Shown: positions 1-64,000 of the stretch, piece after piece | Layout of the letters: each line of letters starts with the position of its first letter | Position numbering within the stretch: the stretch's first letter is position 1 | Source of the DNA: Methanohalophilus sp. | GTDB lineage: Archaea > Halobacteriota > Methanosarcinia > Methanosarcinales > Methanosarcinaceae | Length of the DNA: 64,000 nucleotides | Assembly (NCBI RefSeq): GCF_030156785.1 | Contig: NZ_JASGLW010000003.1 | Span: 1 to 64,000 of the forward strand | Reading direction: 5' to 3' | Translations under genes and position numbers: made by a program | The notes under the pieces: generated by a model | Told to the model about the DNA's origin: nothing | Databases searched by the model: none | What the model saw: only the letters and a program-made list of their open reading frames with translations

Positions 1-38
1 AAATCAAGTGAAGGAAGTGAAATTCAAGGTATTAATAC

Positions 39-66
39 ACAATCTTGACAGGTATGTCAAGATTGT
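39..66. repeat. Perfect 12-bp inverted repeat
   Basis: Two 12-nt arms, ACAATCTTGACA and its exact reverse complement, flank the tetranucleotide GGTA and end one base before the ATG at 67. It could be an operator, a terminator hairpin of an upstream gene, or part of a mobile-element end. No T-run follows it, so a simple terminator is not the obvious reading. Confidence 0.7.
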
Positions 67-318
67 ATGCTTAGCTTGGTTGAGGATTTCTACAGAGCCC
101 AAAAAATAGAGAGTTCATATTCTTTCAAAAAAGAAACTACAAACAATTCAACAATACTCGTTGCTGAAGACAAAGCTGATGCAAAGAAATTGCTCACGAT
201 CGCATTACGTTCACTAAAAAAGCAGCAAATATCCCCATTTATTATGTACTACAAAAGAGCTACAAAAGAGCTTACGTCAGAAAATAGCAAGATGCTTAAA
301 AATATACCGTTGTCATGA
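67..318 (+). CDS. Hypothetical lysine-rich protein, 83 aa
   Basis: I do not recognise a family. The frame encodes a basic, soluble polypeptide with no signal peptide, membrane helix or Cys motif; its middle (about residues 27-60) could form helices. No convincing ribosome binding site precedes the ATG, which abuts a perfect inverted repeat. Another frame is open from the window edge to a TAG at 108-110 and looks equally protein-like, so the true coding frame is uncertain. Positions 82-100 share 19 identical bases with 30356-30374, inside another orphan ORF. It may be a remnant of a mobile gene. Confidence 0.35.
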
Positions 319-508
319 ACAAATACAAATTCAATCACAAAGAAATATAACTTATTAGAGAATATATTGATGAGAGCTTTATATACTTCAAGACATCATA
401 TATTTGGCAATTATTCTTGAGAATCTACAAAATATAATCTTTTAAAAATGGATTTTCGTCATTGCTATATACCAATAAATATGAAGAGTGTACAGGAGTT
501 GATTTTAT

Positions 509-1036
509 ATGGCTGATAGCAAGAAAATTCTGATGGTAATTGCTCAGGAGAATTTCAGGGATGAAGAGTATTTAGAACCACGGAAAATCTTTGAGAAAAA
601 CGGTTACGAGGTAACAGTTGCCAGCAATTCAACTGCCACTGCTATAGGAATGAAAGGAGAGAAAGTAAAACCCGATATTACCATTGATGACGCAAATGCA
701 AATGATTATGAATCAATTGTGGTTGTCGGAGGCGGAGGGTCCCACAAGTACCTGTGGGAAAACGTGAAACTCCGGAGTCTCCTAAAAGAAGCAAATAAAA
801 GCGGTAAAGTAGTGGCAGCTATTTGCATATCCCCAGTGGTGCTTGCTAAAGCCGGATTGCTAAAGGGTAAGAACTGCACTGTTTTCAAAGATGATACCTG
901 CATCAAAGCCCTTAAGAAAAACGGTGCCATGTATGAAGACAAGGATGTAATACGAGACGGAAGAATCGTGACAGGTCGTGATCCAAAGGCCGCAAAGAAG
1001 TTCGGCGAGACAGTTGTGGAAGCTTTAAAGGAATGA
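509..1036 (+). CDS. DJ-1/PfpI family protein
   Basis: A 175-residue class I glutamine-amidotransferase-like protein of the DJ-1/ThiJ/PfpI superfamily. Members act as glyoxalase/deglycase, chaperone or peptidase; the activity here cannot be told from sequence. The N-terminal strand KILMVIAQENF is typical, VVVGGGGSHKYLW matches the glycine-rich loop, and AAICISPVVLAKAG is the nucleophile elbow with its Cys near residue 103. The length is normal for the family. It stands alone, preceded by about 190 bp of AT-rich DNA that may hold its promoter. Family assignment is firm, function is not. Confidence 0.9.
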   Translation: MADSKKILMVIAQENFRDEEYLEPRKIFEKNGYEVTVASNSTATAIGMKGEKVKPDITIDDANANDYESIVVVGGGGSHKYLWENVKLRSLLKEANKSGKVVAAICISPVVLAKAGLLKGKNCTVFKDDTCIKALKKNGAMYEDKDVIRDGRIVTGRDPKAAKKFGETVVEALKE

Positions 1037-1491
1037 GCTTCCATATTTTTGTATAAGCAGACTGAATTATCCGCCAGAGCATCCATTTAGCAGATTAACA
1101 TCTGCCCCATAATATTTTGTAAGCTGAAGAACATCGACTAATCCGTATTCCATGCATAGGCAAAGGCTTTCATTGGAACTCCCGCAGTACTTTAAACTAA
1201 ATTTTTAATACCTTTACATATTATGATAATCTGATGTAGCTATAAAATATTTGCACATTCTCTTGCTTTTTTATACAAATTCTTTTGAATTTGTATAGGA
1301 CCTACAAAAGAAAGCAAATAACAAAAAGTAATATACGGTGCTATGCCAATAGAAGGACTTCTTGTACCGAACCTGCTCTTTGGACTGATTGTCTTAACCC
1401 GGGCAGCACTTTAGGATCTAAGAGATTTGCTATTTCTGCATTCTGCACATGGCAAGCATGTTCAGGAATATAATTTTTTCAACAACTAAGA
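1037..1491. other. Intergenic region, no firm gene
   Basis: It holds a perfect palindrome (1273-1296). It also holds a 48-codon frame, 1343-1489 on the plus strand, starting ATG and ending TAA, with one internal TAG at 1412-1414. The translation has a hydrophobic N-terminal half (VPNLLFGLIVL) but matches nothing I know. It could be a small TAG-containing gene or a remnant. Confidence 0.4.
1273..1296. repeat. Perfect 10-bp inverted repeat with TTTT loop
   Basis: The arms are ATACAAATTC and GAATTTGTAT around TTTT. It lies between convergent genes. Without a G/C-rich stem it is a weak terminator candidate; an operator is possible. Confidence 0.6.
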
Positions 1492-62321: not shown

Positions 62322-62476
62322 AGTATATTACTCCGAAATTATAATAGGCATAATTATTAATCATCCATAGTTCATAAAACCCATTGATGTGAATCTCTTT
62401 TGTTGCAAATACTATATATAAAACTATCGAAGATAAAGTGAATTATTCTGATTAATTTCCTTAGAGGTGAATTGTT

Positions 62477-63808
62477 ATGAGTGGATCACAGGTTTTACTG
62501 ACTATCGCAGGCTCAGATTCGGGTGGAGGTGCGGGCATTGAAGCGGATATTCGAACATTTGCAGCTTTGGGATATCACCCTTCATGCGCAATTACTTCAG
62601 TAACTTCCCAGAATACCACCGGCGTACTGGATACTTTCGATATACCGGTTTCCCACATTGTTTCACAAATAGATGCAGTATGCACTGATATGCGTGTCAG
62701 GTGGGCAAAAACGGGAATGCTTTCTAAAAACGAAATCGTAGAATCCGTTGCAGATTGCATCAGGAAACAGGGTTTGAAAGTTGTCGCTGACCCAGTAATG
62801 GTTGCTGAATCAGGAGGGCAGCTACTCGAAGAAGACGCTGTTGATATAATACGAGACGTATTGCTACCTGTATGTCTGGTTACAACTCCCAATATTATGG
62901 AAGCTGAAAAACTTTCCGGAGTTTCCATAAAATCATGGAAAGATGGTAAAAAAGCTGCCCGCAGAATTGCTGATTGTGGAATAAACAATGTAATCATAAC
63001 CGGAGGACATCTTGACGCTTCTGATCTGGTCTATGAAGCCGAAAACGACCGCTTTACCACCATTCCAGGAAAGTTTGTCAGTGGAGGAACTCATGGTTCA
63101 GGTTGTACATACTCTTCAGCACTGCTTGCATACCTTGCCAAAGGTCTTGATATGGCGGAAGCTGCAAGATGTGCAAAACGTTTTGTAGAGAATGCAATCT
63201 CCGGAAGTCCGCAGGTTGGCAGCGGCCAATCTCCGGTAGATCCGCTGGCATCACTACGGACGTCTGCACATCGCTACAATGTAATAAGAGATGTTATGAA
63301 GGCTTCAGACATGCTGGTTTCAGAACCCATATTTACAAAACTGATTCCTGAGGTGGGTACAAACATAGGCATGGCTATCCCAGGAGCATCTACCATTTAC
63401 GATATTGCAGGAATTACAGGACGGATAGTGCGTGCCGGTACCAGACCGGAAATGGCCGGGCATATTGATTTTGGAGCAAGCAGCCATGTGGCACGCATTA
63501 TTCTTGCTGCAATGGAGCAGGATCCTCGTTTCAGGGCGGCTATGAATATCAAATATTGTAGGGAAGTTCTGACTGTATGCAGCCAGATGGGACTTGGCAT
63601 ATCTTCTTTTGATCGCGAAGATGAACCTGAAGATACACATACTATAGATTGGGGTGTCACCTATTCTATTGAAAGATATGGTCGTGTTCCCGATATAATA
63701 TATGATGAAGGAGGTATCGGAAAAGAACCCATGATCCGTATCTTAGGCAGGGATGCAACTGCTGTGGCTTCAGTTGCGCTAGAGATTGCAGGCAGGCTTA
63801 AGGTTTAA
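62477..63808 (+). CDS. thiDN: Bifunctional hydroxymethylpyrimidine kinase / thiamine-phosphate synthase (ThiD-ThiN)
   Basis: A 443-residue enzyme. Residues 1-265 are ThiD, phosphorylating HMP and HMP-P (TIAGSDSGGGAGIEADI; SGGTHGSGCTYSSALLAYLAKG). Residues about 270-443 are the archaeal ThiN domain (EVGTNIGMAIPGA; GHIDFGASSHVARIIL; IIYDEGGIGKEPMIRILG), which joins HMP-PP to the thiazole phosphate. The fusion is common in archaea. No thiamine riboswitch is evident upstream. Confidence 0.95.
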   Translation: MSGSQVLLTIAGSDSGGGAGIEADIRTFAALGYHPSCAITSVTSQNTTGVLDTFDIPVSHIVSQIDAVCTDMRVRWAKTGMLSKNEIVESVADCIRKQGLKVVADPVMVAESGGQLLEEDAVDIIRDVLLPVCLVTTPNIMEAEKLSGVSIKSWKDGKKAARRIADCGINNVIITGGHLDASDLVYEAENDRFTTIPGKFVSGGTHGSGCTYSSALLAYLAKGLDMAEAARCAKRFVENAISGSPQVGSGQSPVDPLASLRTSAHRYNVIRDVMKASDMLVSEPIFTKLIPEVGTNIGMAIPGASTIYDIAGITGRIVRAGTRPEMAGHIDFGASSHVARIILAAMEQDPRFRAAMNIKYCREVLTVCSQMGLGISSFDREDEPEDTHTIDWGVTYSIERYGRVPDIIYDEGGIGKEPMIRILGRDATAVASVALEIAGRLKV

Positions 63809-63855
63809 ATCCCGTTACATCTAAACTTAAATACTGTAGAAAACAACACTTTTAT

Positions 63856-63877
63856 GGGAGAGGTATTTGCCTCTCTC
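63856..63877 (+). repeat. Hairpin upstream of the last gene
   Basis: GGGAGAGG and CCTCTCTC pair around TATTTG. It lies about 25 bp before the GTG at 63901, in the probable leader, and could be a terminator of thiDN or a leader structure; no T-run follows. Confidence 0.45.
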
Positions 63878-63900
63878 AATACAAGGGGGCTTTTGCAATC

Positions 63901-64000
63901 GTGCAGATTGAATTATTCTATTCAAGCATTACTATTTTTCTGATTACCATCGTACTGATACTTTTACTCCAGTATTTCTTCAGGAAAATCCCAATTTTTA
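63901..64000 (+). CDS. Membrane protein, partial at window end
   Basis: A frame opens at GTG 63901 and runs off the window: MQIELFYSSITIFLITIVLILLLQ..., an N-terminal membrane helix followed by FFRKIP. GGGGG lies 11 nt upstream as a loose ribosome binding site. The product cannot be named from 33 residues. Confidence 0.45.
   Translation, partial: MQIELFYSSITIFLITIVLILLLQYFFRKIPIF

Follow-up and report, generated by a model that had tools for sequence, protein, structure and literature searches.

The codon UAG is probably used efficiently, and nearly completely, as sense for pyrrolysine (Pyl) in the methane-producing archaeon studied here and in its genus as sampled, to judge from the sequences compared. 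An earlier note on the window, the whole stretch of 64,000 nucleotides, had proposed that UAG is wholly or largely reassigned. The few TAG ends, the TAGs inside genes and the presence of a pyl operon uphold the word "largely", whereas "wholly" is not established, because the release factor aRF1 looks canonical and pylB has its natural end at a TAG.

Stop-codon usage in the window and across genomes

Genes in the window were called with a two-stop code and, because such a code is unable to yield TAG ends, again with the standard code. The two-stop code returned 69 genes, 35 ending in TGA and 34 in TAA. Standard-code calling again gave 69 genes, and its sole TAG "end" was the cut front of an aminotransferase gene. 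The earlier count of about 65 genes ending in TAA or TGA and none in TAG was therefore borne out, with no TAG end among the 69 called genes. TAG makes up 1018 of the 6008 stop triplets in all six frames of the window, and about 11.7 of the 69 ends would be expected to be TAG against none observed (chance of none 2.7e-6).

The genome-wide count of terminal codons that had been proposed as a check was carried out on a sample of 366,504 bases (24% of the assembly) of the window's genome, G000, in which TAG ends were almost absent: 2 of 324 called terminators against 55.3 expected. One of these two lies inside a methyltransferase domain (FkbM) and the other is the end of pylB. In the same genus, called TAG ends numbered 2/352 in the closest relative (G005), 3/428 in G006 and 1/83 in G002, so that the gene caller puts their share at 0.6-1.2% across the four genus members; the sister genus (G009) had 2/401. 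Besides pylB, one called TAG end remains in G005, two in G006 and one in G009. Since TAG ends are equally scarce in the single-contig genomes of the genus (G002 and G006) and of the sister genus (G009), the scarcity is not due to one bad assembly. Among contrast genomes, 9 of 85 called ends were TAG in G021, which is without a PylS match over the cut-off, and 11 of 80 in the pylS-bearing G011. In the Methanosarcina-like G017 the figure used is 1/70, from a later caller; a first count by best suffix score (9/95) was dropped, most of its TAG ends appearing on reading to be antisense open frames.

Window genes with in-frame TAG

All five in-frame TAGs that the earlier note had placed in four intact genes were found where it reported them (Table 1), with Pfam domains extending through or around the sites and relatives aligning across them.

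Table 1. Genes of the window that contain in-frame TAG codons
Gene	Coordinates	Strand	In-frame TAG	Remark
LOG-like (SLOG cluster 4) gene	29115..29564	-	29474-29472	
Class I aspartate-type aminotransferase	41225..42367	+	41390-41392	
Macro-domain gene	46539..47081	-	47054-47052	TAG near N terminus
TPR-repeat gene	53614..54240	+	53701-53703; 53770-53772	TPR profiles; 53614 is the called start, true start may be upstream

In the aminotransferase, the PF00155 (Aminotran_1_2) match at residues 34-379 spans the TAG at residue 60. Matches were found in 29 of 29 relatives (E 1e-40), some of them paralogues or partial, and among the matches listed none except the window's own contains a TAG. The site is TAC (Tyr) in G005, to which the protein is 92% identical, and pN/pS after the TAG is 0.07. 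The read-through protein of the LOG-like gene matches PF18306 over residues 35-167, with the TAG at residue 63 inside the match. This gene has a match in 18 of 29 relatives (E 1e-15), without a TAG inside among the matches listed, while that in G010 carries one TGA; the 17 relative proteins that align across the TAG column have R, S, K, N, M or A there. In G005 the codon is AGT (Ser), and pN/pS is 0.40 before the TAG and 0.19 after it. In the macro-domain gene, PF01661 (Macro) matches residues 31-143, beyond the TAG at residue 19. Matches in 17 of 29 relatives have no TAG inside, three having one TAA in the matched stretch; the TAG column holds Lys in 10 of 11 aligned relative proteins and AAG in G005, and pN/pS after the TAG is 0.23. 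As the TAGs of these three genes are private, with no TAG in the relatives' listed matches, the selection recorded in them may partly predate the TAG.

The TPR-repeat gene differs in that it carries TAG in 8/8 genus members searched, at sites that differ between two clades. Its first TAG site is ATG in G005 and its second is TAG there also; against G005, pS after the first TAG is 0.64 and pN/pS 0.14. All seven other genus members have a TAG in this gene, and six of them have two, at other positions than the window's. Both TAG sites of this six-species clade are kept in 6/6, with a downstream pN/pS of 0.20. As judged from these substitution patterns, the gene is under purifying selection on both sides of its TAGs. 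Comparison with sister species, which had been suggested for the frame beyond each TAG, thus found that frame conserved and the TPR TAGs persisting genus-wide.

The further observation that no intact gene has an in-frame TAA or TGA agrees with a homology-spanning test, in which the only window case was TGA 45314 (-), by reading just upstream of a gene start. A possible sixth TAG, upstream of a Tsr3-like gene at 30108-30106 (-), is conserved in G005 as well but was rejected as non-coding, since the alignment around it has insertions and a TATA-like stretch and resembles that of an upstream region.

Internal TAGs elsewhere and specificity of the tests

The G000 sample contains 13 internal TAGs in 11 genes besides mtmB, of which the window contributes five TAGs in four genes. 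These genes include the CCA-adding enzyme and TrpF, and two of the genes in the sample carry two TAGs each. The 11 comprise nine called internal, the FkbM methyltransferase, with its TAG lying within the domain, and a gene in L016 whose TAG is spanned by homologues. A homologue or profile extends across a TAG in 10 of the 11, the exception being a 104-codon gene in L005.

The caller alone is not specific, since of 85 genes in G021 it gave five an internal TAG, and some of these are, by reading, next genes in the same frame. Likewise, coding potential alone, with all pieces scoring, did not separate TAG from TAA in G000, where read-through genes numbered 7 for TAG, 15 for TAA and 3 for TGA. A stop-spanning test by tblastn was dropped, since conserved genes also give matches in their antisense frames, and blastp against called proteins was used instead. 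In G000, this test gave 9 of 1845 for TAG versus 9 of 8605 for TAA and TGA together (p 0.002), with some of the compared stretches picked over relatives of window genes; without the window, the counts were 5/1501 versus 8/7076 (p 0.06). The non-TAG cases (3 TAA, 6 TGA) seem, by reading, to be mostly starts or ends of neighbouring genes. In nine other genomes a TAG excess was not clear, the TAG/TAA/TGA counts being 5/4/3 in G005, 1/2/2 in G002, 2/3/1 in G006, 0/0/0 in G009, 0/1/2 in G012, 2/0/1 in G013, 2/2/1 in G011, 0/0/1 in G017 and 1/0/0 in G021. Because coding potential and spanning tests discriminate weakly, the internal sites rest on individual alignments and profiles.

Decoding genes, release factor and the end of pylB

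A search for pylTSBCD, proposed earlier as a check, found pylT and pylS and likewise pylB, pylC and pylD, which form a complete pylT(CTA)-pylS-pylB-pylC-pylD operon in G000. PylS was the single match above the cut-off (6.8e-115), a tRNA-Pyl with a CTA anticodon lies upstream of pylS, and pylB, pylC and pylD follow contiguously, pylC and pylD being identified by position and use as queries. In addition, mtmB has one in-frame TAG inside, with 450/450 profile positions matched. On the strength of these decoding genes, the residue at UAG is most likely pyrrolysine.

aRF1 keeps its NIKS and YxCxxxF motifs; both are present in all 29 aligned sequences, and no altered form of either was found among them. 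With these standard motifs retained, aRF1 may still terminate at UAG to some extent. About 12 residues past YxCxxxF, one column is Ala or Ser in G009, G012 and the members of the window's genus, and Lys in 17 of the 19 remaining sequences; as a cause of the trait this column was rejected, since the TAG-poor G017 has Lys.

The clearest remaining candidate for residual UAG termination, which is possible there, is the end of pylB. This gene ends in TAG in 8/8 genus members and in two of three loci assigned to Methanococcoides. Residues 8-347 match the PylB equivalog model, and the TAG follows at residue 351. It lies one base ahead of the start of pylC, and reading through it would extend the frame by 39 codons that overlap pylC. 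Fourfold sites of pylC differ at 96 of 424 in codons 2-39 versus 339 of 829 in codons 46-140. The low fourfold change goes on to codon 56, past the end of the pylB extension, and, as it does not stop where the extension stops, selection on the extension itself may not be its cause.

Interpretation and alternative explanations

Under efficient sense use, UAG would be an ordinary but rare sense codon, read by tRNA-Pyl (CUA) that PylRS charges with Pyl made by PylBCD. A constitutive supply of Pyl may first have made UAG terminators costly, whereupon UAA or UGA replaced them, and the vacated UAG may then have been taken up as sense where a change is tolerated, mostly at variable positions. In relatives, the TAG sites hold Tyr, Lys, Ser, Met, Arg, Gln, Asp and others, and Pyl in most such proteins would be tolerated rather than catalytic.

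It is possible, if rather unlikely, that UAG is instead ambiguous, with aRF1 and Pyl-tRNA competing wherever it occurs, a situation published for Methanosarcina. TAG ends would then be rare since read-through is costly, internal TAGs would be tolerated, slightly harmful mutations, and the genes containing them would yield partial full-length protein. The canonical aRF1, the conserved TAG end of pylB throughout the genus members and the occurrence of TAG in this species only, among the relatives listed, for three of the four window genes are all consistent with such competition, as is the dual use with 20-30% reporter read-through given for M. acetivorans in passages of one review (PMC2933860). 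Low read-through, however, fits poorly with TAG pairs in one gene, where the reporter values would leave 4-9% full-length protein, with the TAG in the CCA-adding enzyme and with TPR TAGs kept across six species.

That UAG has become fully sense for Pyl in the genus, while the terminal UAG of pylB is retained to gauge pyrrolysine, is a doubtful proposition. In such a gauge, plentiful Pyl-tRNA would let ribosomes pass the pylB UAG and translate another 39 codons, out of frame with pylC and across its start, giving a longer PylB and less re-initiation on pylC; scarce Pyl would cause a stop at this UAG and re-initiation on pylC.

Near-complete decoding as Pyl also has to be weighed against insertion of another amino acid by another suppressor or near-cognate tRNA, which is very unlikely. 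The mixed residues at TAG columns in relatives would suit it, and the inserted amino acid is for that reason not readable from homologues, but a second CTA tRNA did not appear among 40 tRNA-model hits, of which ARAGORN resolved 38, none with CTA, and two intron-bearing ones were judged from alignments only. The tRNA-Pyl gene is the only CTA tRNA gene found in G000, and both Gln tRNAs have anticodons TTG and CTG. Sequencing errors, pseudogenes or artefacts of a fragmented assembly might be suspected in a genome of 19 contigs and 94.55% completeness with private TAGs in the aminotransferase, LOG-like and macro-domain genes; the pN/pS of 0.07-0.23 after TAGs, the scarcity of TAG ends in the single-contig genomes and the TPR TAGs common to several species make this extremely improbable. 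It is likewise extremely improbable that local signals in the mRNA program the recoding of a few chosen genes and that UAG is a stop everywhere else: passages of two papers describe PYLIS elements as a proposal for some Pyl genes (PMC9499178, PMC3639795), but the TAG genes are unrelated, the TAG sites differ between clades of the TPR gene and hardly any ordinary TAG ends occur.

Comparison with known systems

The organism clearly adds another case to a type of recoding that has been described before in related archaea. An archaeal "Pyl code", in which TAG means Pyl proteome-wide in some Pyl archaea, was reportedly described with proteomics by Kivenson and colleagues in 2025. As in that code, TAG is here nearly gone as a terminator and stands in-frame in many unrelated genes, whereas its reading as Pyl in the present species is predicted from genes. 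Since standard annotation cuts genes at TAG, enzymes of metabolism and RNA processing would wrongly be annotated as fragments genus-wide. The codon serves as a normal stop in G011; in G000 it has been nearly vacated and occupies a few sense sites, and in the TPR gene its sites have become fixed in several species. With genomes at such different stages, stop-codon capture should be traceable gene by gene. Furthermore, the conserved end of pylB poses a testable question, namely whether a UAG stop is still needed by a Pyl-reading cell.

In 'Ca. Methanomethylophilus alvus', passages of a 2014 study give 1.6% TAG terminators, against a called 0.6-1.2% in the four genus members here. By a read-through logic much like the present one, that study also predicted Pyl in 16 proteins other than the methylamine methyltransferases (PMC4153887). 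That organism belongs to another order (Methanomassiliicoccales), and mostly other genes carry the TAGs here. With Methanosarcina, as portrayed in parts of a 2010 review, the present genome shares the pyl operon, the TAG in mtmB and a pylB ending in TAG, an ending given there for three named species (PMC2933860). The same parts describe UAG in Methanosarcina as dual use and note incidental Pyl in Thg1 of M. acetivorans, whereas here TAG ends are almost absent and 11 internal-TAG genes occur in 366 kb.

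TAG as a terminator

No gene of the window ends in TAG, as the earlier note had claimed: with TAA and TGA as the only stops, 69 genes were called, ending in TGA (35) or TAA (34). The standard code also gave 69 genes, and its sole TAG "end" was that of a cut aminotransferase. Since TAG makes up 1018 of the 6008 stop triplets in all frames of the window, about 12 TAG ends would be expected; the probability of finding none is 2.7e-6. The pattern extends beyond the window. In a sample of 16 stretches plus the window (366,504 bases, 24% of an assembly of 1,550,882 bases in 19 contigs, 94.55% complete), 324 terminal codons comprised 171 TAA, 151 TGA and 2 TAG, against 55.3 TAG ends expected from the all-frame share. 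One of these two was rejected as internal, lying at residue 127 of a protein whose FkbM methyltransferase domain spans residues 21-158. The other belongs to pylB, which was not randomly drawn, the pyl region having been deliberately put into most samples.

TAG ends were similarly counted in relatives. Genomes G001-G007 belong to the same genus, which we take to be Methanohalophilus, and the counts there were 2/352 in G005 (the closest relative), 1/83 in G002 and 3/428 in G006. Among genomes presumed to be Methanococcoides-like (G009), Methanohalobium (G012), Methanosalsum (G013) and Methanosarcina (G017), they were 2/401, 0/96, 3/83 and 1/70, respectively. Apart from pylB, called TAG ends numbered one (G005), two (G006) and one (G009). 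G021, which has no PylS match above the cut-off, showed 9/85. In the family member G011 (stretches L250-L254), pylS is present yet TAG is a normal terminator (11/80), unlike in most other pyrrolysine (Pyl) genomes sampled.

Genes that continue past TAG

In the sample of the window's genome, 13 internal TAGs were found in 11 genes. The five reported earlier in four otherwise complete window genes are where they had been placed, and the read-through proteins match SLOG cluster 4, class I aminotransferase, macro domain and TPR repeats.

Genes with internal TAG codons in the sampled part of the genome
Gene	Location	Strand	Internal TAG
LOG-like	window, 29115..29564	-	one (29472)
Aminotransferase	window, 41225..42367	+	one (41390)
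Macro domain	window, 46539..47081	-	one (47052)
TPR	window, 53614..54240	+	two (53701, 53770)
CCA-adding enzyme			one
TIGR00375 protein	L011:16803-17975		one
Geranylgeranyl reductase-family protein			two
Phosphoribosylanthranilate isomerase TrpF			one
FkbM methyltransferase			one
Further gene	locus L016		one
Short unnamed gene	locus L005		one

Homologues or profiles cross a TAG in 10 of the 11 genes, the short L005 gene being the exception; the G009 homologue of the CCA-adding enzyme runs beyond the TAG to its own end, with Arg at the site. Support for the sites comes from such individual alignments, automatic tests being weaker. When relatives' proteins were tested for spanning a stop triplet, TAG was crossed in 9/1845 cases and TAA plus TGA in 9/8605 (p 0.002), some compared stretches having been positioned over relatives of window genes. 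With the window excluded, the counts were 5/1501 and 8/7076 (p 0.06), and nine other genomes gave no clear TAG excess. By coding potential alone, read-through genes in the window's genome numbered 7 for TAG, 15 for TAA and 3 for TGA. In G021, the gene caller returned internal-TAG genes in 5/85 cases, some of which we read as in-frame next genes.

A further TAG (30108-30106, minus strand), 5' of a gene read as Tsr3-like and kept in G005, was rejected as lying in a conserved region that resembles a promoter more than coding sequence. When the TIGR00375 protein is read through, its last residues are QQSSLFDF, which resembles a PCNA-binding peptide; truncation at the TAG would remove it.

Selection and age of the sites

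The frame past TAG is conserved in the sister species, as the reassignment claim would have it. Relative to G005, at a dS of about 1.0-1.5 for the four window genes, pN/pS past the first TAG is 0.07 (aminotransferase), 0.19 (LOG), 0.23 (macro) and 0.14 (TPR). At the TAG sites, G005 carries TAC (aminotransferase), AGT (LOG), AAG (macro) and ATG (first TPR site); TAG may thus postdate much of the observed selection in the aminotransferase, LOG and macro genes.

For the TPR gene this doubt is removed, because its TAGs are genus-wide, clade-specific and kept. TAG occurs in 8/8 genus members searched, five of which also have one TAA in the matched stretch, by the translations just 5' of the start Met. 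The second TPR site is TAG in both G000 (the window's genome) and G005, and two other sites, three codons apart, occur in the six remaining species (6/6), within which pN/pS is 0.20 after the two sites and 0.04 before. The G009 gene has no TAG. The gene (loci L272-L280) is a TAG hot spot, with sites that differ between two clades and are fixed within the six-species clade. Within a single gene, TAG has thus arisen at several positions and been retained, as a sense codon would be.

Decoding machinery

The pylTSBCD genes are all present. A tRNA-Pyl with anticodon CTA lies directly upstream of pylS, the only PylS match above the family cut-off, followed by pylB, pylC and pylD, and mtmB contains one in-frame TAG. 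Of 40 tRNA-model matches, 38 were resolved by ARAGORN, none with a CTA anticodon; the two intron-bearing matches were assessed from alignments alone. Public genomes contributed 45 PylS loci with names, mostly those of Methanosarcinaceae, a set from which records close to G000 may have been left out.

Possible residual termination at UAG

Scarce TAG ends and internal TAGs uphold the proposed reassignment of UAG, but not its being "wholly" reassigned: the release factor aRF1 has canonical motifs, with NIKS and YxCxxxF in 29/29 aligned sequences, and pylB ends in TAG. Both features argue against a complete loss of termination at UAG. One aRF1 alignment column about 12 residues past YxCxxxF (loci L175-L203) holds Ala or Ser in G009, G012 and the members of the window's genus; of the 19 other genomes, 17 have Lys, the exceptions being G011 (Val) and G013 (Thr). 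The 17 include G017, which is likewise TAG-poor.

The pylB TAG coincides with the end of the PylB family model and lies one base 5' of the pylC ATG (L012:9361-9365, contig 9), and read-through would add 39 codons. The stop was readable in 65 of 70 pyl loci (37 TAG, 25 TGA, 3 TAA); without seven repeats of the same genomes (n=58), there were 31 TAG, 24 TGA and 3 TAA, overlap between named and unnamed records being possible even then and the TAG of locus L040 being uncertainly placed. TAG ends downstream genes in 0/49 (pylC) and 2/32 (pylD) cases. It ends pylB in 8/8 members of the window's genus, in 9/9 readable loci named Methanosarcina and in two of three Methanococcoides-assigned loci (the third, a named MAG, has TGA), while the 13 readable Methanolobus-named loci have TGA. 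For pylB, a 2010 review already gives a TAG end in M. mazei, M. acetivorans and M. burtonii and a TAA end in M. barkeri (PMC2933860). The pylB TAG may be a true stop, a codon read through into the 39-codon tail, or a gauge of Pyl-tRNA supply that would tune pylC re-initiation. In pylC, fourfold sites differ less in codons 2-39 (96/424) than in codons 46-140 (339/829), but the reduction reaches codon 56, past the end of the tail. The gauge idea is absent from the available excerpts of PMC2933860, PMC9499178, PMC8211752 and PMC11467909.

Mechanism and relation to known systems

Excerpts of earlier work describe competition between aRF1 and Pyl-tRNA (review, PMC9499178), dual use of UAG (review, PMC2933860), 1.6% TAG ends with 16 further Pyl proteins in 'Ca. 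M. alvus' in 2014 (PMC4153887), and a 2013 screen that ranked genes interrupted by TAG across several Pyl genomes, that of Methanohalophilus mahii among them (PMC3639795).

Most likely, with Pyl supplied constitutively, UAG ends came at a cost and would have been swapped for UAA or UGA. The freed codon could then have come into genes at tolerant positions, UAG presumably being decoded as Pyl efficiently enough for even two per gene to persist. This sequence of steps is an inference, and so is Pyl as the residue inserted. Permanent ambiguity of UAG is a possible alternative, which differs from such recoding mainly in the efficiency of read-through.

A 2025 paper reportedly named a "Pyl code" in archaea, proteomics included. 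Together with the 'Ca. M. alvus' report, the reviews and the 2013 screen, this places the probable recoding in G000 as a new case of an already known type.
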